Shown here piece after piece: positions 28,998-42,936 of a stretch of 64,000 nucleotides of DNA. Positions within the stretch are counted from its first letter, which is position 1. Every line of letters begins with the position of its first letter. Both the position numbers and the translations under genes were made by a program. Source of the DNA: Pseudofabraea citricarpa (lineage: Eukaryota; Ascomycota; Leotiomycetes; Helotiales; Dermateaceae). The notes under the pieces are model-generated. The model was not told the origin of the DNA, made no database searches, and was given only the letters and a program-made list of their open reading frames with translations. The stretch covers positions 2,046,001 through 2,110,000 of the forward strand of contig JAPWGK010000002.1 of assembly GCA_029641185.1 (NCBI GenBank). The letters run 5' to 3'.

Positions 28998-29846
28998 GGT
29001 CGTAGATCTCCCTTGTGTGTTGAAGTCGTTCAGTCAATGTGGTAGGTAAACAAGAGATCAGGAGCAGTAGAGTGGGAGCGGAATGTGATGTGGGTTATGT
29101 TCTTGATATCAGTCAGTACTTGTATATAACAGAGTGTGTTATGCATAAAAAACAAAACATTCGCCTTGGTCCAGTAAGAAACAGACCAGACATACGCGTG
29201 CTGTTGTCGAGTCAGAATCGAGGGGATTGACAGCAAAGATGGAGAGACCAGGGACAAGCATGCAACGGATGACAGTGGAGTGGAGATGGAGTGTTCTCAG
29301 GAGGAAAACGAAGACATGTTCTCCGGAATAGGTTTCTTCATATGCTGAACCTCGTGGTGGCGTGTACTGTACTTATGTGCGGCGGGCAGTGCCTTCAGGA
29401 GACCAGGGCCCTGCGGTGACGACGAGCATTGATTGAAAGGACGATATGCCTTGTCCTGGGGTTCTATCCGGGTCAAATATTGTTGGAGCTTCCCTGGCTG
29501 CCGAAGATGGAAATCAGTACGTCAGCCGATCAGAGGATCTGTCTCCTCGCTCTCGTTTGCAGGGCGCATAAAACTGCCGCTAGGCTGAATCGAAATAGAA
29601 GTACTGTATAATAGTTGTGCTGATTTGTGCTGTGCTATGCAGGGCGGGTGATGCTTATGCACTTATGCACTTATGCACTTATGCACTTATGCGTGTCCAA
29701 GCTTAACTCCTCAGAGCATTGAAGGTCCGTCGTGGCCACCGTATAAATTGCCTTCGACCAAAATTCATGAAGCATCGACAAAGTCTCCAGAGACCGCGTG
29801 CTTCCAACTCCCTACTCTCTGCTCCGCCCACCCTCTCTCCCTCACT
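28998..29846. other. Divergent intergenic region
   Basis: This holds promoters for the disordered protein and for mL58. An 8-bp tandem repeat lies at 29655. No gene is seen. Confidence 0.4.
29655..29692. repeat. 8-bp tandem repeat TTATGCAC, about 4.7 copies
   Basis: Perfect consecutive copies lie 155 bp upstream of the mL58 start codon. Confidence 0.9.
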
Positions 29847-30470
29847 ATGGATGTACGATTATTCAGAAAGCCGGTGGCCGATGTCTTCTCTGCGAGGAGT
29901 CAATGTCTCTTTACTCTTAACACGACCGCCCGACGGCACGAATCTTCCTACCGGCGAACCAGGCAAAAACTGAACATCAAGCCCAACTCGAGCTTCCTGG
30001 CCGATTCGTCCGCAGAGCAAGATCACATCATCTTCAATCCTCCTGCTGCAGCTCCCTCGGTTCTCCATACACCAACCAAGTTCCTCCCCAAAGACGACAA
30101 GCGGCGGCACATCCTCGAGTCCACAGCGGCCAGACGCACGCCATCCACACTCCCCCCTGTCATCAAACAGTTTGTACCAAAAGAAGAGAGGCACCATCTT
30201 ACCAAGGCGCATGTGGATGAGATACGGAGTCTGCGATTATCCGATCCAAAGAAGTGGTCAATTGTTACCCTGGCGAAGAAGTTCAATTGCTCGCAGACGT
30301 TTGTGCAAATCATCAGTGCCGAATTGACCTACAAGCAACCGGAACTGAGGGAACATTCTATCCAGGAGCGAGAGAAGAGAGAGGCATACATGGCGCGATG
30401 GGGCAATAAGCGGGCGAAGGCAAGGTTAGACCGGACCAAGAGAAAGGAGTTGGCATTGAAGGACGAGTAA
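29847..30470 (+). CDS. MRPL20: Mitochondrial large-subunit ribosomal protein mL58 (MrpL20 family)
   Basis: A 207-residue protein. The start at 29847 (MDVRLFRKPVADVFSARSQ) gives a basic, acid-poor presequence; the open frame extends 58 codons further upstream but that part lacks protein-like texture. Family features are the SYRRTRQKLNIKPNSSF segment, then RRTPSTLPPVIKQFVPKEERHHLT, and a helix-turn-helix-like region KWSIVTLAKKFNCSQTFVQ. The C terminus is very basic (RWGNKRAKARLDRTKRKELALK). The protein is a fungal-specific structural component of the mitochondrial large ribosomal subunit. No intron is needed. Confidence 0.87.
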   Translation: MDVRLFRKPVADVFSARSQCLFTLNTTARRHESSYRRTRQKLNIKPNSSFLADSSAEQDHIIFNPPAAAPSVLHTPTKFLPKDDKRRHILESTAARRTPSTLPPVIKQFVPKEERHHLTKAHVDEIRSLRLSDPKKWSIVTLAKKFNCSQTFVQIISAELTYKQPELREHSIQEREKREAYMARWGNKRAKARLDRTKRKELALKDE

Positions 30471-31106: not shown

Positions 31107-32236
31107 ATTTCGTTGCATAACGGACTGCAATATGACTCACTATATTATAGATACAATAGATAGGCATACACTGAACTTAACTAAACTTACCTAGGTAGTC
31201 TTATGTGCCCTTGGTAGTGAATCATAAGAGTCCGTCACGCAACGAAATCTGGCTATAGGCTCTGGGTCGTTGAGGTTAAGCAGCTATTAGTGAGTGAGTC
31301 TCTCCAAAGTCCGTCATGCAACGAAATCAGGTACCTAGTTACCTAGTGAGCTAAGCAGTCTTCAGCTTTGGGTCGTTTAAGTTAAGTAATCATCAATGGA
31401 TGGGGTCATCTGAAAATCCGTTATGCAACGAAATCCAGCTTCTTGGGTCGTTCAAGTTTAACTTATTATCAGTGAATAGAAACCCGTCATGCAACGAAAT
31501 CCAATGTCCTGGGTCGTTCAAGTTAACTCATCAGTGAATTGAAACCCGTCATGCAACGAAATCCAATGTCCTGGGTCGTTCAAGTTAACTCATCAGTGAA
31601 TGGAAACCCGTCATGCAACGAAATTCAGCCTGTTATGCACCTTAGTGAACAAGGTATCTATCTACCTAGTAGTATATAATAAGTGACAGATTCACTTGAG
31701 AAGTCCGTCATGCAACGAAATGTAGCTTACTATAGAATATATAAGGTATACCTAGTTGAACTGCATTCATACTATCATATAGTGGCTCTTGTGAGAAATC
31801 CGTCATGCAACAAAATCCAATAAATACAAGGTAAGGAGAATATTTATAGTTCTCTAAGGCAGATCATGAGTGAATCACCAGCGTCGTCATGCAACGAAAC
31901 CCATATCCAGCTATCTAAAAACAAGACAAAGAGTAATGTGGTATATGTGACTGTGAGTCACTTGGAAAGTCCGTTGTGCAACAAAATATAGTATGCTACT
32001 CATTTGTGCAGTTATAGCAGCATGCAGTAAGATAGTGAATCATATGAGATGTTCGTTATGCAACGAAACACAGTATAGTCTGCCTAGTTAAGCTATAGTA
32101 ATGTAGTGCAAGTGAGTGACTTATATGGAGAGTCCGTCGCGCAACGAAATGTAATATGTTATTCTAGCCAGAATTACTAAAACCGTAATATAGAGTAAGA
32201 GAGAGGGTCATGTGAGATGTCCGTCATGCAACGAAC
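31107..32236 (+). repeat. Left interspersed-repeat array: 15 copies of a 19-bp core with a companion box
   Basis: The core GTCCGTCATGCAACGAAAT recurs at 31230, 31309, 31416, 31482, 31544, 31606, 31703, 31798, 31882, 31969, 32051, 32132 and 32219 on the plus strand with small variations, plus one inverted copy at 31107. A further degenerate reading may exist between them. Distances are mostly 60-100 bp. Most copies are preceded by AGTGAAT or AGTGAGT, 6-15 bases upstream. The DNA between is AT-rich and mostly unique, except for a 62-bp tandem at 31435-31624. Cores vary almost only by transitions. It is not a transposon I recognise, and no open frame accounts for it. Confidence 0.92.
31435..31624 (+). 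repeat. 62-bp tandem repeat inside the left array, three units
   Basis: Units at 31501-31562 and 31563-31624 are nearly identical; a first unit at about 31435-31500 is diverged. Each has a GGGTCGTTCAAGTT box, AGTGAAT and the core. Two more GGGTCGTT boxes at 31264 and 31370 belong to older, further diverged units. Confidence 0.88.
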
Positions 32237-33138
32237 AAGAGTAACCCTTGAGTTATTGAAAAATGTCATACTCCTAAACAACCTCGCTTAAGCTATCACA
32301 ATGTTATAATATATTTGTTACTTAACGTGTTTTGTTATATAGTGATATGAAAGTTCAAAAGTATAGGATATTATAAGAGGGCCAAAAATGGACGTAGAAG
32401 TAATATCTATGCTAGTTTAACAAGATCTAGAATCTTAGAAAACCTGTTATATATTTGGAATCTTTAATAGGTGACTTTATCACATTTGTACCTGTCTAGC
32501 ATAATTTATTAGTTTATCCAGAGAATACCAACGACCGCAGGGTAAAATAAGTGCTTCCTATCCAACCAGATCGCTTGATTTATTGTCACCTAGTAACATA
32601 CCCTAATATTGATATAATATAGCCGACATAATCTAAAAGCGAATCTCTGTAATAGCGGTTCTACCTCCTTCCTAATATAGGCAGTAAGTATACGCTTCGT
32701 CGTTATAACGCCACCTGATAATCGGCCGCGTCCGGATTCTATATATATATATATATATATATTAAGGAGGGTAGAATCCTCTTCTCTCTTCAGAGATAAA
32801 TTATATCACAAAACTATAACATTCTACTCACAACCACTCTTACAATCTCTAGAGGCGTTGTCATACTATTAAAATTTTATATAAAAGCTTTCGAATTACA
32901 CTGCCTATCTACACGATTGTTATGCACAAGAGGCGAATTTTCTATTCACCAAACTAACAGCAGAGTATGAGATTCAGGTAATTCGCGTCAAGGTCTTGGT
33001 TACTCAAGTGTTTTGATTTATAAGATAATCTGCCCTTAAATCCTAATGGTATCCCAACATTAAATAAGAACCACAAAAGAAATCTGCGTCCATATATGTA
33101 TACAAGTTTCAATGCACAAAGTTTGATATTAGTCCTCT
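32237..33138. other. AT-rich intergenic DNA between the left array and the nuclease-like gene
   Basis: Very AT-rich, with a perfect (AT)11 run at 32741-32762. No gene or RNA is visible. The pattern would fit decayed repetitive DNA. Confidence 0.5.
32741..32762. repeat. (AT)11 microsatellite
   Basis: An uninterrupted AT dinucleotide run in AT-rich intergenic DNA. Confidence 0.95.
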
Positions 33139-34718
33139 TCACTTTCTCTCTTCTCTTTCTTTATTCTTTCCAAAAAGTGATCCTAGACCATGATGTTGCT
33201 TAGGACTCTTCGTATGTTCTACGGTCCTCTTTGGAGCCTGCGGCGTCTCGGTCCTCGTTTGAGCAGCCCTTGGTGGAGTTACTGGAGTCAAAGCAGATGC
33301 ACTGGATTGCCCTTGAGAGGTAGATCCGTACAGGTTCATTCCTTGCACCCGCGCTGAAAGCTGATCGAATCCGGGCTCCTGGCGTGCTCCTGGCGTCGTG
33401 CTCGAGGTTGGCTGGCTAAGTGGGTTGGTAGAAGGGGCAGGCTTTTGGTACGGCAAAGATGTTTGAGGTTTTTTACGATCGGGAGGCGTGGGCGTTTTTG
33501 GCTTCTGTGTAGGCGGCGGCGGCGGCGAGGGTGACTGCGAGGACTGATTCAAAGCAAAAGCCACAATGAACGTTGCAAATCTTTTCATACTGTCTTTGTC
33601 AGAAAGTATAAATGGCCCATACTCCCTCATGCACATAAAACTATTCGTATGTGTCCCCTTATGAAGGTAGTGCAAATAGTTGTCATTGTACATAGCCAAT
33701 GTGATCCATAGTTCGTTACGGTCTTGCGATATCAACAAGCGACTGAATATTATAAGATAATGACCTCCATAAAGATGGGTAAGAACACATACCAATTTTC
33801 CCATTTGCCCTGTAAACGATCACTAATGTGTAACGTTCCTGACGCATAAGGATCTGAGTAGATCCAGCATACCATCTCGCCAGCTTCTTGATGTCGAATC
33901 TGCTCTGGCTTTCTCTCCCGCATGAACGGTTTGACTTCGAAAATCGCGTGCACTTTTTCCGAGTCGTTGAAGCTTCTAATATAGCCATCTGTTGTTGCAG
34001 TCCACAGATTGCTGAATTTGAATCTTTTTCTTTCCAGAGTCGTTTCAACTTTGATACCTTGGTGTCCTAAGAACAAGGCATCCAGTAACAGGATCAATGC
34101 CGTATTTACAATCTGCTCGTCCCTTGCAACAGCTGTGTCATCATTACGTGCTTCATTTGTCATTGACCAAGTTGAGGCTGGGGTATCAATGTTCGATGGG
34201 GTTTGCATCATGACTCCATAATTTAAGGGGGCTTTTTGTCGAAATTTCCGTGGAGTTGAGTAAGGATCAGTAGCATTTGACCGCTCAGAAGATTGTAACC
34301 GCTCCAGAAGAGGTTTCTCAGGCGTTATCGACGATGTTTCGCCAATATTGTCAACATCAATTTCTGTGATTGCTAGTTGATGCCAGCGCACCAACGTAAA
34401 CAGGCCAATATTCTTCGGTCTAGGTGTTCTTGTCTCTTTACGACCTGGCAATGTTTCAAGGTAGGCTTTCCAGCTCTCAGAACTTTGCAGGAATATCTGC
34501 GCTGCCTCATACTTGTCAGACATGTATTTCGATGAATCCAAGGCAGCCGGCTCCCTTGACTCCCATAATACATGAAGCAAGAGGTACTGGTCCTTCAACA
34601 TCTGCGAGGCCGACTTGTACGGCCTAGATTTGTGCATGGTGTCCGACATATTTAAACCCATTTTTGCAGCTGCAGTTTGCCATTCCTTGATAGAACTTGG
34701 CACTGTGAGTTCTGCCAT
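33139..34718 (-). CDS. PD-(D/E)XK nuclease-like fungal protein
   Basis: Exons 34718-33793 and 33742-33139, with a 50-bp intron, give 509 residues. The core reads DEQIVNTALILLLDAL (about 201-213), then TDGYIRSF with Asp244, IFEVK with Glu261 and Lys263, and IRHQEAGEMVCWI (about 274-286). This is the helix, D..ExK and (R)xxQ arrangement of PD-(D/E)XK nucleases as found in a fungal-specific family. After the intron comes RLLISQDRNELWITLAMYNDNYLHYL and MREYGPF, also typical of that family. The C terminus is Pro/Ser rich and ends basic. Biochemical activity is unproven. It lies between two inverted repeat arrays, about 0.9 kb from the left one. Confidence 0.78.
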
Positions 34719-36017
34719 ATTCAAGACAGCAGAAGTCCTGTAATGATGGACTTCGCTTCCTTTTCGTATGTAGGCGCGGCGATCTTGAATACTTTCGTAA
34801 TTGTGACAGGGCAGGAAAAAAAGATGCTATGAGATAATTTGTGAGAAGACATAGAACTGATGTATCCTTAAGTAGAAGTCAGTTCCCTGTAATGGTGGTA
34901 GTCTTAGCGCCTGGTGAAACATAACCGCAAGGCTGTACTGGCGCCTGGAAAGTCGAAATTCGTCCAACTTGCAGGACTTCAGAGCTGCAGAGCTGCACTG
35001 GCGCCTAAGACACAATCAAAATAGCAATCGGGCCCGAAATTTGGTGTCAAAATCTATGTTGGACTCGCACTAATCCCACATAAACAAAAGGTCAGGGATA
35101 TCCAACAAAAATGCAGGAATCCTTCTAACACCATATAAATGCCATCTTCAGACATGTCAGGTGACGAACCCTGATAGTTTGTATGCCTTTGGAGTTCTTG
35201 AGAATCGTTTATTTCAGGCTGTAATATTATCAATAAAGATAGAAGCCATTCACCTATAATATCGAGCAGAATTTCTCAAGTAGATAATCGCTTGAAGATA
35301 GGTCAAGATGTGTGTCAGTACCTAAAAGTAATGTTTCCTCCGTCCGAGGGCGTTAAGAGAGGTACTTTGTCGGATTGAGGGCCTCTAAACAGGAAAAATA
35401 CTCGATCAGCTCATTGCCTCATGCATTAATCCCTAAAATAGGAAGGAGTAATCAGGTCAGCAAGGCGATGGCCCTACTCTCCAAATTTGGCTTCAGCTTC
35501 CTCTCTCGCGCGCGCTTCCTCAAAGCGCTGCCTCATTAAACGCCCATCCCACCTTCCTCTACCAACATCATCTTCTTCACAACCTTGAAACAAGTCAAAA
35601 GTTTGCAATGAAGAGCAGCAATGTTCGCGTCATCTGGAAGCAGTGTAATACCAGAGACACAGTGAGGCTGACCATGCGCAAGCACAGCGGGCCAAACCTC
35701 GCGGCGAAAAATAAGAATAATCATTGATTGCTTCGTTGAAGCGTTTCAGAGATTAAACTGAAAAGAACAGATACTACACTTGATCTAAGCCAATTGGCAA
35801 AGAGGAGCTGGGGAGAAAAGAAGAAGAAGAGGAAGAGAGAGGACGGGAGGCAGTCTTATATATTGTTGCGGCCGCGCTAGTTTGGTTAGTATATTTGCTC
35901 TGTTTGCACCGCTTGTTTAGGGCGGTCAGATGACTTCTCAGGAGGAAGGCAGACAATGGAATCCATGAGACAGCTGATACAATTCCATTACTACCTGCCC
36001 GCCCGCCTAGTACCTAC
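34719..36017. other. Intergenic region, no gene supported
   Basis: This contains the promoter of the nuclease-like gene and the 3' flank of the sugar transporter. Direct copies of CTGGCGCCT occur near 34900-35005. Small minus-strand frames near 35540-35950 lack conserved features. A GCGGCCGC site lies at about 35870. Confidence 0.4.
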
Positions 36018-37635
36018 TTATCTGCCCCTCAACAAAGGCTCCTCCTCACCGTCGCCCTTCTTCCTCGGTATCCTCAAGAATTTACCCTCGTCAACCTTCC
36101 GTACAGACCAACTCTTATCCTCAGCAGCGCTGTTGAAGAACTCCTGGTTCTCCTCGAAACTCCGTCCACCACTCTCAGGCGTGTACTTCCAAGTCCACCA
36201 GCCAGCGAAAGTATTGGTAGCAGCAAAGACGAGGAACAACCAATACTTCAGGTTATTGAACCCGATGGGTGTCAGCAATGTCACTGCAAAGTTGGCCAGA
36301 CCCCAAATAATCACACTCACAGCGCTCCCTTGTGCGCGAGCTGTGCTAGGATAAATCTCAGTTGGGATCAACCATACTGTTGCCAGCCAACCAATGCCAA
36401 AGATGGCCGTTGCCAGATAGAGGACAATGCTGCCTGGTATCTCAACAGCCAGGTCTGGTATGCCAGGAATATCTTGAGCCAGGCCACCAAAAATGGTAAG
36501 AAGTGCGAATGAGGTTGCAAGACCAATTGCACCCCATACCATAAGTCTACGCCTCCCGAGAACATCAATCGACATCCAGGCCAAGGTCATCATGGCAAAG
36601 TAGAAGATGTAGTTCCCAAGGGTCAAGTACTCGGCTTTGCGAACTCCAAATCCAAGAAGCTCGAAGATCTGAGGTCCATAGACCGAGACAGCACCATAAC
36701 CAGTCAAGGCTTGATTTATCTGACCCATCACAGTGATCATTGTGGGATGAAATTGAGATCCTCCCGGCAGCAACATATCTCCGTAACCAACCTTCTCGTC
36801 ATTCTCCTCCTCTTGCGCTTTGTCAAGATCGTCCAGTTTTGGTTTGGCACCTTCCTTTCCATGTATGGACTCCAACGCAGTTTTCGCGTCGTCTCTTCTA
36901 TCCTTGCTCATGAACCAGCGTGGAGTTTCTGGCAGTCGGCTAATGATGGACATTAACAGGATCGGGAATATCTGCATGATGACAATTGGAAGCCTCCAGG
37001 CCCATTGGTTATCTTTCCCAAGTCCAATTGTTACACCGAGATTGATTGAGAATGCCATCAGCAGGCCGAAGATGTTCATCTGGAATTCTTGGGCTAGAGC
37101 TCTTCCACGAGCTCCATCAGATGCCAACTCACTGCTGTATACAGGAATCACAGCGTCTATCCCACCAACTCCCAAACCCATCACAATTCTTCCAACCAAC
37201 ATGATCACAAATGCGCCGCCGCCCCATGGAGATGATCCATTCATGGTGAGACCCGACACAAACATAAGAATGTTTCCAAATGAGGTTGTCGCCAAGCAAG
37301 TAAAGATAGAAGGTTTACGTCCTTTTTTATCTGCAAGCCATGATGCTATGACAGCGCCGACTGCGCATCCCAGGTAATAGACAGACACGATGATACCGAC
37401 GATGGAGGAATCTTCGGCGATTTGCATGGTCTTGAGGTAGGATCGGTTTGTATTGATCAAAGACATCATTCCTGTACATTATTAGAGTCGTTCAAAGACA
37501 GTTCGCATTCTACTTGCCTTGATCGTAGCCATAGAGGGCAATTGCTGTGCTTGAGAAGGCAACAATCTCATGTTTCTTGGAGATCAAGGGAAATAACGTG
37601 GTATCATCCTTCATACGAGATGGTGGGTTAGGCAT
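36018..37635 (-). CDS. MFS sugar transporter
   Basis: Exons 37635-37518 and 37471-36018 give 523 residues with about twelve membrane segments. Sugar-porter signatures are clear: GYDQGMMSLI in helix 1, DKKGRKPSIF in loop 2-3, GRIVMGLGVGG, PETPRWFM, and DVLGRRRLMVWG in loop 8-9. PTEIYPSTARAQGS follows, then WKYTPESGGRSFEE near the end. It should import a hexose or related sugar by proton symport; the substrate cannot be named. The single 46-bp intron starts with GC (CAAG|GCAAGT) and ends GTACAG; no GT donor gives the conserved join. Confidence 0.93.
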
Positions 37636-38260
37636 GTTGACGGCAGTTCTCTGCAACAGCAACTGGTCCGGTAGCAAGACAAGAGGATCCAATGGATAGT
37701 AAAATCCCAGCGGTCTGGAGTGGCAGTCGCAGAGATGGACCAACTTCAAGTGACACAAGATTAAAGTGAGAGATTGACTGGATTCCACGATGATTGGAGC
37801 GATGGCTCTAATATATCTATCGCAATTGACAGAGGAACTTTCCCTGCCACGGCGTGGGATGACTTGGCATGGTGGGGGATCGCTCGTCATGTAGAAGTAA
37901 TGTACGATGACATCAAGATACCGACATCTCTAGAGAGCCTAGAAGCAGCATGGCCAGCACGAGCGGATATGCATTTGGCAATTGGCTATCTACCAATTGC
38001 TCACCGCTCACATCAAGTGCACACACTACGCGACTCGAGATAGCCATGGCTGATTCGTCCCATGGTAAGCCTCGGACATGGTCATATGAGATGGGACGAG
38101 ATGGGAAACCAGAGATCTCGTTCTGAAAGTGACGCGAGCAACAGGGATGCTTACTTCTACGCATCACCTCTCACCTCTACGGAGTAACATCTCGCGTTCT
38201 GCCTATCATGACCGCCTTCATCTCACCTACAACACCAACCATGAACATGAACGTGACAGC
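37636..38260. other. Divergent intergenic region
   Basis: Promoters of the sugar transporter and of the next gene face away from each other here. No gene or repeat is seen. Confidence 0.4.
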
Positions 38261-39431
38261 ATGTCTCCTCCGCCGGCGGTGAGTTCATGTACTACGTCGC
38301 TGATACTTGTCTGATTTGAAGATATGACAGACCCCCTCTCCGCATCGGTTCATCGTGAAGAAAGCGGCGGCGCTGCCACCAAAGAGAACCCCACTGGTGC
38401 AAGAACATACCCCTCGACGACCGAGCTTCACTGCCCCTCCTTCGAATACTCAGCAGTTCAGTTCTACGCCACGGCCTAGCACGCAGCAATTCAATGCTAC
38501 TCCCAGATTCAACTACTCGTCGACTCCTAGGTTGACGCAAGAGCTACCTACGTCAACCCCAATCTCAACTCGTTACGCGACCCCGGCGCGTCCTGTACCC
38601 AAGGTTCACGAGACAATTGAGAATTCTTCAGATGATCTACCACATGATTTCCATGACTCGATCGAGGCGGAAGATCAGGATGTGCCATCAGATTACGAAC
38701 TGGAAGTAGACGAGGACGACTATGCTATAGATGCACGAAGTACAAAACGACGGAGACTCTCTCCATCTCTCACTCCAACAGAACATGCTCATGTTGACCA
38801 CGGATTCTCAAGCTCTCCATTGCCGATCCTGTCATCACCACCTGCTCCACGCCACCAGCTCACGTCTGCTGCTCCGAAATTTAAACTTGCGACACCGGCA
38901 CCATCTTCCATACCGCAGCCTACCTTGACTCAACAATCAACGTTTGCCAAAGCCCCTCGCTTTCGGCCACCAGATCATTCTTCACAGGTGCAATCGAATT
39001 CCGAGCCCCTCCCCGAGCACTTCTCGCCTCACAGGCGCGGTCAGAAATATCTGGCTGGCGGGCTGGCAGCAGAGGTTCGAGAATGGCTCGTCAATCTCGA
39101 TGCGGCTATCCCTACAAACGCCGGTCAGAAACATAGAGATAGTGCATGGGCAATGCGAATTCTCGTCGAGGAGATCAGTGGTGGTGGTCGAGCTGGTATG
39201 ACTTTAATTAGGGGTCGTCAGATACTTGCTCAACCTGAGAGATCCGGGAGCGTGATGGATAACTTGGGAGTGGTACGGGTCGCCCTCGCAGGTGATGGGG
39301 CGCCTACGGGCATACAGAAAGGTAGCAAGGCAGAAGTAGGTTCGGTTGTTGGTATCAAGGGACCCCTGTGGGAAATCATGATTGATGAGGAGAAATGGGG
39401 CGTTGGTGTTGATTGGAAGGTGCTTCCTTGA
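38261..39431 (+). CDS. Unknown fungal protein with a beta-rich, possibly OB-fold-like C terminus
   Basis: Exons 38261-38278 and 38331-39431 give 372 residues; the first exon is only 18 bases (MSPPPA) and the join gives TPSPHRFIVKKAAALPP. I do not recognise the family. The first 230 residues are Pro, Ser and Thr rich, with acidic (EDQDVPSDYELEVDEDD) and basic (TKRRRLSP) clusters. The ordered part starts FSPHRRGQKYLAGGLAAEVREWL and ends with short strands including VVRVALAG, VGSVVGIKGPLWEI and WGVGVDWKVL. This spacing recalls an OB fold, which is inference. The KRRR patch could be a nuclear signal. Confidence 0.75.
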
Positions 39432-39611
39432 TGATTTATGCCGGATACGAAGGTCTGGAAAATACCTACCTACCTACCTTACCTATGATTTGAGAGCGCT
39501 TAATAAAGGGTTCTGCTGGGCCTAGAGGTCACTGAATTAGCTTACATGCTCCAAGTTGTACAATTTATTTTTAAATTTGCCCTAGCTTGTAGATGGCTGG
39601 AAAATTGTTAC
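39432..39611. other. Short 3' flank before the right repeat array
   Basis: This contains TACC tetranucleotide repeats at about 39465 and AT-rich DNA. Confidence 0.4.
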
Positions 39612-41308
39612 ATTTCGTTGCATGACGACGCTTGCTATTCACTATTCACTCCCAGTATACCTTGTATATTATCAGAATTCGTTGCATGACAGACCTCTGT
39701 TTCTGCTGTTCACTTCTTCTCATATTTTGTCGGCATTGCGTGAACGTCCTACAACCATATGAGTAACGAAACGATGAGTTGACGACTCTCTACAACCCAG
39801 CTATGAAGAAGAAAACTTACATCTATGATTGACGAGCATGAGGCTGTCTCCAACAAATAAAGAACGTATCCTTTGTATCTAGGTATGTTATTAGCTTCGT
39901 TGCATGACGGACCTTCGTCCACCATTCACTTTTCATCTTTCCTCCGTGTGTTATTGGTTTCGTTGCATGACGGACCTTCGGACAATTTTCACTCCTAATA
40001 CTTGTTTTATACCTGGGTTTCGTTGCATGACGGACTATCATTCACTCTTCACTGTGGATTCTAGATTTATAACACTAGGTTTCGCAACTTTCGTTGCATG
40101 ACGACTCTTGCCATTCACTTCTGGTATATCTTATATCACTGATTTCGTTGCATGACGGACAACCATTCACTTGTCACTGTGGGCATCATATTTATATCAT
40201 TAAGTTTTGTTGCACAACGGACTTCTAACCCCTATTCACCCTCTATGTTTCCTTTGCATATCCCTGATTTCGTTGCGTGACGGACTTCTAACCCTAAACC
40301 TATCCTCTCTCTGTCTCCTTTGCATATCACTGGTTTCGTTGCATGACGGACTTCCAACCCTAAACAACCTATCCTCTCTCCATGTTCCATCTCACTCTTG
40401 ATACATGTTTTATGACTGGTTTTCGTTGCATGACGACTCTTGCAATTCACTGCTCACCATAAACACTTCCTTTATTTATTATCAGTTTCGTTGCATGACG
40501 GACAATTATTCACTGTTCACTGAAAGTCACATTTATATCACTGATTTCGTTGCATGACGACTCTTGCTATTCACTCCTGATACATCTTATTTTTCTGGGT
40601 TTCGTTGCATAACGGGCCTTTACTCACTTCACTGTTCACTTATAATACATGTCATACAATCAGGTTTCGTTGCATGACGGATATTTGCCATACTTCACTT
40701 TTCATGTTTCCTCTTCTTATTTTCCCTCTATGCATTACATTATTAGTTTCGTTATGTAACGGGATTTTATTCACTGTTCACTGTGAATATTAATAATTAT
40801 CTAATACAGCTGGAGTTCGTTGCATGACAGACAAATATTCACTCTTCACTTCGGTGTCTGGTTACACCAATCCAGCTATATTCTGTTTCGTTGCATGACA
40901 GACTGGAAACAAATTTCCAAAATAGGAGGCAGATTAAGATTTCGTTGTGTAACGGACCTTTTTTCACTACTCACTATGAATCACTATGAATATCACCTGT
41001 GCATATTACTAGTTTCATTGTATGACGGATTTCTGTCCACCATTCACACACTCTCTATTTCATTTATACCTTATTCGTTGCATGACGGACTTTCCACAAT
41101 TCACTTCCTCTATTTCCTTTATATGTTATTTCGTTGCATGACGGACAAGTATTCACTGTTAGCTATGAATCACTTTAGCTATGAATCACTATGAATACCA
41201 CATGCATATATAACTAGTTTCGTTGCATGACGGACAAATATTCACTTTTCACTATGAATCACTTTGGATATAACCTTTACACATTACTTGTTTCGTTGCA
41301 TGATGGGC
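39612..41308 (-). repeat. Right interspersed-repeat array: 24 copies of the same core, opposite orientation
   Basis: On the plus strand the core reads ATTTCGTTGCATGACGGAC. Copies start at 39612, 39676, 39894, 39957, 40017, 40088, 40142, 40204, 40267, 40333, 40420, 40485, 40544, 40599, 40664, 40746, 40814, 40885, 40939, 41012, 41072, 41128, 41217 and 41290. Most lie 54-89 bp apart; one gap is 218 bp. Most are followed by ATTCACT, often doubled as TTCACT, after 4, 7-8 or 11 bases. All copies share one orientation, opposite to the left array. Four copies have a one-base deletion (GACGAC). Short open frames here are read through the repeats and are not genes. Confidence 0.93.
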
Positions 41309-41423
41309 TCTCAGATGAACCATTCACTAAGAGTTGGTAGACTTAAATGGTCCAGGGCCTGAGGTAATTCGACTACTTTCTAGGGCTCATCTCAAGACAG
41401 AGTCAATTATCTCTGCTAACGTC

Positions 41424-42936
41424 TTAGCTACTATCCTCGCTTTCATCTCTCTGCCTCTCTATTGCTCTTACAAGCTCAAGCGCCTGGAGGGCTGATATCC
41501 TATCCTCTGGCTTAAATCTCATCAAGCCTTGGATTACTGGAAGTAGAGATTTCAAAGATTCCTCTGTAACCTTTTTCTCAAACGTTATTTCGAGTCCGCA
41601 TTGTGTATCCTGAGCCGAATCTAGAGAAATGCCATGTCAGATTATTTCTTTAGTATCAAGCAAACAAACAAGTGCCTCTTATTACTTGAATGTATAAGTT
41701 TGAGGATGACTTACCCTCAGAATTCCCAATTTCGTGTTTTGCGTTCAGTAGTAGCTCCTGGAATTTTGGCTCCCATTCTGTCGGCAGCTTCTCCACAAAT
41801 CCAATCATCGCCGTAGCAAGAGCATCATCTCCACCGAGATAATGAAAAGGATAGGTTTGAAGAACAAAAGAATGAATCTACACAAATGTAATCAGCTACC
41901 TCACCTCTAACGCGGCAAACAGGTGGCTTACCGCAATACCCACCCTCCATAGATCAAGTCTGTAATCAAACTTATCTGTGAAAACCGTCTCAGGTGCCCT
42001 CAGAGATCCAGGCTGGGCGATTTTCTCGGGCTCAGCACCTTTCTTGAAAGTCTCGCCGAAATCAATCAACCGGAGATCCTCCTCATCTTCATTGACCCAA
42101 GTATCCCAGGCAGCAGCCTTAACAAGTTGACTGGGCATGCTTTTGGGCAATGGCAGGGCGTCAATGCGAGCGACTTCATCGGTTTCAGGAGTTCCGATGA
42201 TTTCGAAGAATTCTTCCTCTGATAGTCGTTCGGCTACACCGCATTTGAAGGCGATTTTTCGGCTGCTTATGTCTATTTTAAGTTAGCAAAGAGTGGAAAA
42301 CGTTGAATGGAGTGTGCTATTTTGTCGAAAATCAGGTCTGAGATGCCTGTTCGAACATACCTCCATGAGAAAATCCAGCGCCATGAATAAATACCACAGC
42401 TTCCAACAGTTGCTCGCACATTCTCAAAATAACATTTGGCTCTAGCGGCTCACCGTCATCACGATACTCATGATACTCCCTGAGAACCTGATCTACAGAA
42501 GGGCCCAGCAACTCAAACACCAAACACTGATGCGTACCATTTGGACCCTCGAGTTGAAATTCATCAAGCAGCTGAACAATGAATTTTGAAGCGAGGTCTC
42601 CTTTCGCATGACTTGCCAGATCTTGTAGATTGAGAAGTTCTTGCGACTTACTTCCACTATCAGCTGTCATGATTTTGATAGAGACCCATTGGTTGTTCCT
42701 ACCATGCTCAGTAAAAGCTCAGTTAATATGTTGTAAAAAGGATTGGTATACTTGGTGTCTCGAGCCAGCCACACGGTGGAAAATCCTCCCCACCCGAGTT
42801 TGTGACGTATCGTATATTGGCCGCCATGCAGCCTGTCACCGAGACACACTGGATGATATCCACCAGGCTGATATCTTGACAAATTTTCTTGAGTATAAAG
42901 AAGGTTGGTGGGCTCGTACATAGAGTAATCCTCCAT
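41424..42936 (-). CDS. SRPK-like protein kinase with altered catalytic loop
   Basis: Five exons, 42936-42752, 42698-42361, 42272-41932, 41877-41715 and 41620-41424, give 407 residues in one frame. The kinase fold is complete: Gly-loop KLGWGGFSTVWLARD (about 47-60), ATP-binding Lys70 in WVSIK, the loop HGDISSRK with Asp165, DFG at 235-237, LRAPE, and DLWRVG. A C-terminal helix ends RFKPEDRISALQALELV. The layout matches fungal SRPK-type kinases, which phosphorylate Ser/Arg-rich proteins. The metal-binding Asn normally five residues after the catalytic Asp is Lys170, so activity is doubtful. The gene begins transcription away from the right repeat array, whose edge is 115 bp beyond its stop codon. 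Confidence 0.88.

Follow-up and report, generated by a model that had tools for sequence, protein, structure and literature searches.

Heterochromatin and DNA methylation in fungi are usually tied to bulk repeats or to AT-rich, decayed transposons. At the pairing centres of C. elegans, a single short motif occurs in dispersed clusters, its copies separated by unrelated DNA, and these clusters recruit zinc-finger proteins (ZIM/HIM-8) to one region per chromosome. Shared-core minisatellites grow in tandem and carry one common core at several loci, and in human minisatellites the core has been proposed to be a recombination signal. Primate and mouse satellites contain the CENP-B box, whose strict recognition sequence is given as NTTCGNNNNANNCGGGN in the relevant part of PMC4904201. 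Here we describe two arrays of a conserved core site in a 64,000-nucleotide stretch of the Pseudofabraea citricarpa genome (44 Mb, 43 contigs). This stretch, hereafter the window, covers positions 2046001-2110000 of contig C12 (C12:2046001-2110000). With a probability of about 0.52, we read these arrays and their relatives elsewhere in the genome as a dispersed family of selected, two-part protein-landing arrays that would mark chromatin. The core itself is probably a selected protein-binding site, and the arrays are about as likely as not to nucleate a local mark on chromatin.

Core arrays in the window and across the genome

At the level of sequence, the arrays form a dispersed family in which a core is kept amid decaying spacers, units grow in tandem and a partner motif accompanies the core. 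The core site AAGTCCGTCAYGCAACGAAAT is 17-21 bp long, and its 17-bp centre holds 26.7 bits, which is much for a eukaryotic binding site. Over 407 aligned copies the edges of conservation are abrupt, with flanks out to 45 bp holding at most about 0.2 bits per position. The window was scanned with a matrix trained on 445 site calls, all outside the window; in every other scan the matrix was trained and scored on the same loci. A plain consensus scan of the window agrees with this out-of-sample scan, which yielded scores of 22-36 bits for all sites save one in array 2 (12-13 bits). The latter, at 40746, is nearly palindromic and also scores on the + strand (40745), giving 39 calls for 38 sites. 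By comparison, 20 first-order Markov shuffles of the window together gave 7 calls scoring 9 bits or more, with a maximum of 10.2 bits. The arrays and their recent repeats are as follows.

31107..32237, + strand: array 1, 14 cores (out-of-sample matrix scan, consensus scan, partner motif); the 21-bp core windows start at 31107 on the - strand and, on the + strand, at 31228, 31307, 31414, 31480, 31542, 31604, 31701, 31796, 31880, 31967, 32049, 32130 and 32217
39612..41310, - strand: array 2, 24 cores (out-of-sample matrix scan, consensus scan, partner motif); all cores are on the - strand, starting at 39612, 39676, 39894, 39957, 40017, 40088, 40142, 40204, 40267, 40333, 40420, 40485, 40544, 40599, 40664, 40746, 40814, 40885, 40939, 41012, 41072, 41128, 41217 and 41290
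31414..31624, + strand: recent tandem expansion in array 1, 62-bp unit, 3.3 copies, 91% matches (Tandem Repeats Finder)
40241..40380, - strand: recent tandem duplication in array 2, 66-bp unit, 2.1 copies, 87% matches (Tandem Repeats Finder)

These 14 and 24 cores bear out the site counts of the original prediction, which was also right that the cores run in one direction per array and in opposite directions between the arrays, the first core of array 1 alone being reversed. The prediction had proposed a genome scan for the core as a check. Allowing up to two mismatches, the 16-bp core has 449 matches in the whole genome (206 + 243), compared to 13 (7 + 6) for the reversed pattern, and a generalised 17-bp core, GTYCGWYRYGCAACRAA, has 280 compared to 0. 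Most of the two-mismatch matches (383 of 449) fall in the window and 24 further loci (L009-L032), which together comprise 26 main arrays with 484 site calls. Among the other 66, some lie in smaller loci and about 13 are expected by chance; the census of small arrays is a lower bound. Main arrays are 0.2-4.2 kb long, with 4 to 54 site calls per locus outside the window and a median core spacing of 71 bp (5-95%, 54-112 bp; 436 same-strand spacings). At a lower score threshold, 437 neighbouring sites lie on the same strand and 16 on opposite strands. Most of the 26 arrays are solitary and one-directional; the orientation switches within L016, L023 and L030, and L014, like array 1, has a single reversed end copy. 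Six main arrays are found on the 4.07-Mb contig C1, four on C12 (two of them in the window) and four on C23. The two arrays had been described as bracketing a 7.4-kb gene segment; that this segment forms a unit with them is not supported. Because the family is genome-wide and its arrays are mostly solitary, the pair in the window are two neighbours of one family and the bracket is incidental.

Smaller arrays, and arrays or groups of a variant core, GTCCGAYATGCAACAAAA (L036, L044-L047, L049-L052), were found around apparent single copies and by a search for the variant. In L044, L047 and L050 the unit measures about 87-93 bp and a 5' word, AAGTCTAGCGACG, is shared; the units of L044 and L047 are tandem repeats of about 90 bp matching at 83% and 85%, respectively. 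No match to Rfam was found within the window arrays or in 29 further loci, and the strict two-core pattern is absent from the viral contigs of IMG/VR. Among the titles listed, the open literature on Helotiales minisatellites, repeat-induced point mutation (RIP) and interspersed homology, and Leotiomycetes tandem repeats shows no such arrays, nor does that on CENP-B-box-like sites in fungi, and no title on a fungus was among the publications matching three exact core strings.

The partner motif, which was absent from the original prediction, is AGTGAAT or its reverse complement ATTCACT. Most copies are found 0-12 bp 5' of the core, and there are almost none beside its 3' side. Its density is 5.0 per kb in arrays compared to 0.11 outside (about 46-fold), and partner words occur within 24 bp 5' of 248 of the 484 cores compared to 73 of 9954 random 24-mers. 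Several cores of array 1 have AGTGAAT or AGTGAGT on the 5' side, and in array 2 the motif reads ATTCACT on the + strand, that is, AGTGAAT in the sense of the core. The orientation of the partner is mostly fixed per array, with sense copies predominating in 9 arrays and antisense copies in 11; it is even in L024, and L023, L026, L032 and the window include some of the other kind. The motif occurs once each in L018 and L030 and is absent from L010, L011 and L029. In L030 (C40:1268 kb), TTATCTG directly 5' of the core takes its place in 13 of 19 units, compared to 10 of 478 in the other loci outside the window, and the variant arrays L044 (5 of 5) and L050 (9 of 11) share AAGTCTA and CTAGCGA at the 5' partner position. 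Paired proteins would, we infer, leave just such a pattern, in which the core stays constant and the 5' partner can be exchanged. The core spacing shows no significant helical phasing: the best period is 8.4 bp (P 0.07), and periods of 10-11 bp are not significant either. A resemblance between the core half TGCAACGA and the Sap1 site of fission yeast was dropped as too short.

Adjacent spacers of similar length resemble each other above the 99% null in 44% of 154 pairs, so units multiply by tandem duplication and their spacers then decay; the expansion at 31414..31624 shows this multiplication. Thus, the units are arranged head to tail and derive from tandem duplication, as in minisatellites. 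They do not evolve as a whole without a privileged segment, as the cores of older pairs lag behind the spacers (youngest pairs are equal). Unrelated units differ at 0.146 of core sites, with spacers between loci at chance (median identity 0.46), and at a spacer divergence of 0.234 cores differ at 0.105 (92 pairs; the divergence bins use overlapping, non-independent pairs). The predicted excess of spacer over core divergence was therefore confirmed, the 26.7-bit core standing among spacers with near-zero information. Of the explanations put forward with it, selection on the core and recognition by a sequence-specific protein gain support from the core kept amid decayed spacers, from its retained CpGs and from the partner motif. 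Recurrent conversion appears unlikely, since the conservation edges are sharp and gene conversion would have to be confined to 17-21 bp. New places can also be seeded, since the spacers of L009 (C1:933 kb), a young five-copy array, resemble those of the larger and older L017 (C8:493 kb) on another contig, likely a case of the birth of a new array. Beyond these spacers, the 36 sequences compared (L009-L043 and the window) have no shared flanks, with two other between-locus matches: 24 bp common to L034 and L036, and one GT-rich low-complexity match.

CpG loss and placement behind genes

Two further features can be read from the DNA alone: a CpG depletion that is centred on the arrays and spares the cores, and the location of the arrays behind gene 3' ends. 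In the arrays, whose spacers are AT-rich, CpG/GpC is 0.20-0.24, compared to 0.73-0.80 in noncoding DNA of matched GC content below 44% (90 array and 261 control segments, controls more than 800 bp from arrays). Depletion is weaker in the five array segments above 44% GC (0.48 and 0.78). Around the arrays the loss fades over a halo of some 400 bp, with ratios of 0.45 (0-100 bp), 0.49 (100-200 bp), 0.61 (200-400 bp) and 0.74 (400-700 bp), followed by 0.73 and then 0.79 at 1.2-2.5 kb. Still, 400 of the 484 cores retain both of their CpGs. Pooled, the 26 main arrays have 204 CG to 751 GC (0.27) and eleven variant or small arrays 230 CG to 251 GC (0.92). None of the eight variant-core arrays counted (L036, L044-L047, L050-L052) is depleted, with ratios of 0.87 and 1.0 in the tandem arrays L044 and L047, and 0.94 in the 11-copy L050. 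As variant and small arrays, including good tandem repeats such as L044 and L047, are spared, repetition alone is a poor cause of the CpG loss, and recruitment by the main core type may explain it better. Related spacers differ by 101 transitions and 40 transversions (40 pairs), most often at CpA, and the genome has nine DNA methylase domain matches at six places.

Gene orientation around the arrays was taken from a scan for hexamer coding potential, with 46 long open reading frames (ORFs) as the training set; the gene calls are rough. At an exon cut-off of 60, 27 of 34 strong flanking exons have the 3' end on the array side (binomial p 0.0004 for an expectation of one half, irrespective of gap lengths), and the 14 gaps comprise 8 convergent, 6 tandem and 0 divergent ones. 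The strictest cut-off (100) gives 20 of 28 exons 3'-facing, with 5 convergent, 5 tandem and 1 divergent of 11 gaps; the weakest (25) gives 33 of 47, with 11 convergent, 10 tandem and 2 divergent of 23; and one further cut-off gives 29 of 38. Because the arrays face gene 3' ends and divergent gaps are rare, a promoter function is unlikely, and the arrays lack the promoter position of a regulatory cluster of the upstream-activating-sequence type. By the same coding-potential scan, both window arrays occupy gaps between convergent genes, as listed here with one further feature of the segment between them.

29673..30470, + strand: left neighbour of array 1, predicted coding with a weak exon score of 34, 3' end facing the array (ORF list, coding potential)
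33139..34805, - strand: right neighbour of array 1, predicted coding, 3' end facing the array (ORF list, coding potential)
35618-35809, - strand: U2 spliceosomal RNA gene, between the two arrays
38355..39431, + strand: left neighbour of array 2, uncharacterised Helotiales protein, 3' end 180 bp before the array
41947..42240, - strand: right neighbour of array 2, predicted exon with a score of 44, 3' end facing the array (coding potential)

A Pfam scan of 33759-34805, to the right of array 1, gave no match. With 72% identity, Phlyctema vagabunda supplies the best of the 226 matches to the protein encoded at 38355-39431; those of the best 120 that are named come from what we take to be leotiomycete genera. 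The segment between the arrays also contains a sugar-transporter gene. At the start of the ORF at 29673-30470 lies a perfect 8-bp tandem repeat, CTTATGCA, with 4.9 copies (29654-29692). Outside the window, two velvet-domain genes are each followed on the 3' side by an array, which lies within about 1 kb of L021:2018-3202 (C12:2890 kb) and within about 0.5 kb of L023:1536-2261 (C17:278 kb). The genome has about 5 velvet loci, and that two of them adjoin arrays may be due to chance given the number of families looked at.

Chromatin marking and its alternatives

In the mechanism we propose, a unit would consist of the 17-21 bp site, with a recognisable partner 0-12 bp 5' in about half of the units, and a spacer free to decay. 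A sequence-specific protein with a long footprint and a partner protein would bind the units together, so that up to several dozen protein copies might load on one array. The loaded array would then nucleate a patch of chromatin that carries methylation or another modification and that covers the 0.2-4.2 kb of the array plus a few hundred bases around it; in 3' intergenic DNA such a patch would be tolerated, promoters not being silenced there. At about 26 arrays, a 27-bit site persists in up to 50 copies per array while the surrounding DNA, CpGs first, is lost. Should a protein indeed read the core, sequence-specified chromatin nucleation could be assayed directly in a filamentous fungus by means of the arrays.

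A tentative and rather doubtful candidate for the core-binding protein is the CENP-B-type protein encoded at 359 kb on contig C11. It is proposed because the core, when reverse-complemented to TTTCGTTGCATGACGGAC, is similar to the mammalian CENP-B box, YTTCGTTGGAARCGGGA (13 of 17 positions, gapless; P 4e-4 against shuffled cores, uncorrected for the other motifs considered). Each has two CpGs, the second block being displaced by 1 bp in the core. The genome has four matches to the CENP-B-type helix-turn-helix (HTH) domain HTH_Tnp_Tc5, and a genome search for DDE_1, run without a positive control, gave no match. The protein on C11 has both HTH domains; its two-HTH domain aligns to human CENP-B (1hlv) at 1.7e-10 and the protein aligns weakly to fission-yeast Abp1 (0.017). 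It has 824 homologues, the best 120 of which span Pezizomycotina classes, with 98% identity in Phlyctema; among the matches listed, they are called "hypothetical" or named by domain or CENP-B likeness. Core sites at the CENP-B-type genes, as would suit autoregulation, were not found in L054-L057 (best score 0.0 bits). As a side observation, CENP-B-type proteins occur in this genome without detectable pogo transposases, as far as the DDE_1 search without a positive control can tell. If a protein does read the core, the arrays may supply a target for this one, which is conserved across Pezizomycotina among the matches listed. In an extended version of the proposal, which we regard as unlikely, filamentous fungi of this lineage would have sequence-encoded chromatin nucleators along their chromosome arms: a domesticated CENP-B-type protein and its partner would read the composite code and bring cytosine methylation to the intergenic DNA at gene 3' ends. 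Selection on binding would maintain the arrays while the carrier DNA turns over, and the main and variant cores would be separate "dialects", with the main one alone recruiting the mark. Such a system would be a non-centromeric counterpart of the CENP-B/satellite system.

Several observations weigh against the arrays being protein-landing sites that mark chromatin, or against a CENP-B-type binder. The strict sequence NTTCGNNNNANNCGGGN fails in the core, with 7 of 9 positions by hand count and the CGG displaced by 1 bp, and the variant core, which lacks CpG loss, reaches 12 of 17 positions with the CENP-B box. Human CENP-B Thr44 and Arg125 are tied to the CpGs of the box in the relevant part of PMC6721688, and both positions are Lys in the C11 protein, as read by hand from the alignment. 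No partner word lies within 24 bp of 236 of the 484 cores, and the flanking genes scanned have no common function. The CpG depletion is uneven: it is only moderate in array 2 (0.54; 13 to 24), L027 has just 1 to 1, L011, L013, L018 and L029 are at 0.60-0.78, and the small arrays L034 and L035 are undepleted with main-type cores. Depletion is also seen in the small arrays L009, L010 and L031, though on low counts (0 to 11, 3 to 15 and 0 to 7). As L034, L035 and other small main-core arrays are little depleted, the number of copies may be as important as the type of core. Moreover, (CA+TG)/(AC+GT) is not raised in arrays (1.18 vs. 1.24), so simple methyl-CpG deamination does not fit, and TpA/ApT is raised in a RIP-like manner (1.06 vs. 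0.78 at 1.2-2.5 kb). Finally, the constraint on the core is inferred from within one genome, and the youngest pairs diverge alike in cores and spacers (0.037 vs. 0.041 at 93-99% spacer identity); at 85-93% identity the values are 0.067 and 0.097, the gap being clear in older pairs only. Cores flanking identical spacers still differ at 0.035; a core next to the spacer may lie outside the duplicated unit, and this would inflate core divergence in young pairs and may partly explain this parity.

Tandem duplication is so plain, in the resemblance of adjacent spacers as well as in the recent 62- and 66-bp repeats, that the arrays could be ordinary minisatellites grown from an old shared seed by slippage or unequal exchange, with the core kept as an exchange initiation or homogenisation site of no host function. 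The L009 spacers on one contig resembling those of L017 on another, the equal divergence in the youngest unit pairs and the placement away from promoters, as expected of tolerated junk, would all agree with this. However, exchange should homogenise spacers too, whereas conservation ends sharply at 17-21 bp; a second motif of free orientation and variable spacing is also kept, and cores keep their CpGs within CpG-destroying surroundings. We therefore consider this origin unlikely, if the most substantial of the alternatives. A repeat-sensing mutator such as RIP could strip the arrays and leave the core as a remnant of selection or of mutation context. The raised TpA/ApT, the halo into unique flanks, the 101:40 transitions with CpA commonest, the DNA methylase domains and the tendency of large arrays to strong depletion point that way. 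Yet L044, L047 and L050 keep their CpGs, although these are shorter than the large main arrays, and the core holds CpA and CpG targets, most of which are retained. RIP would account for spacer decay rather than core retention; it is improbable as the whole explanation, and it may hold together with binding-site arrays that mark chromatin.

Regulatory DNA typically contains composite sites in which the partner is flexible, and the arrays might be clustered activating sites through which a transcription factor and its partner regulate neighbouring genes, for example the two velvet genes among about 5 velvet-domain loci that adjoin arrays. TTATCTG in L030 is presumably a GATA-factor-like word, and a C/EBP-like basic leucine zipper (bZIP) reading of the form GTTACGCAAC is, we assume, also possible. 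The arrays face gene 3' ends, though, with divergent gaps at 0 of 14, 1 of 11 and 2 of 23 at the three cut-offs, no functional theme emerges among the flanking genes scanned, and bZIP and GATA sites are shorter, as a rule, than a footprint of 17 bp and 27 bits. Activation of neighbours thus seems distinctly unlikely, if not quite as improbable as a mutator alone. The opposite orientation of the arrays around 7.4 kb would suit the subterminal repeats of a large DNA transposon, with the arrays as its ends. This is very improbable, as most other arrays have no counterpart within the 3-10 kb read, no flanks are shared among the 36 sequences compared apart from the matches named above, the segment carries the sugar-transporter gene and the U2 small nuclear RNA, and DDE_1 had no match in the genome (in the search without a positive control). 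A centromere or pericentromere satellite, suggested by the resemblance of the core to the CENP-B box, is more improbable still, given several arrays per contig, each of 0.2-4.2 kb, among genes. A CRISPR (clustered regularly interspaced short palindromic repeats) array was rejected, since spacers are partly tandem duplicates, cores are variable and the genome is fungal (cas genes were not searched for); the original prediction had called the arrays CRISPR-like in look only, and the tandem origin of at least part of the spacers agrees with that restriction.

Comparison with known systems

The look of repeat, spacer and repeat is what the arrays share with CRISPR arrays, from which they differ in spacers that are partly tandem duplicates, in variable spacing and cores, and in belonging to a eukaryote. 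Tandem growth and a common core at several loci are shared with minisatellites; in contrast to these, the fungal spacers decay to chance while core and partner stay, and CpG loss is centred on the arrays. Compared to the pairing centres of C. elegans, the fungal arrays occur several per contig, with a semi-regular spacing of about 70 bp. Among fungal proteins, Abp1, Cbh1 and Cbh2 of fission yeast are CENP-B-type DNA-binding proteins tied to centromeres and retrotransposon silencing, as described in part of PMC10799480. The same part of that source presents them as pogo-derived with DDE_1, whereas the candidate on C11 is a two-HTH protein in a genome in which the uncontrolled search found no DDE_1 match. 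In the CENP-B box of primate and mouse satellites, according to the relevant part of PMC6721688, one 17-bp site with two CpGs is likewise kept in diverging tandem monomers. The fungal core falls outside that class in its location, as its arrays do not appear to be centromeric repeats but are many short arrays, several per contig, among genes. Fungal units also measure about 70 bp compared to about 171 bp, and a second motif stands beside many of the fungal cores.

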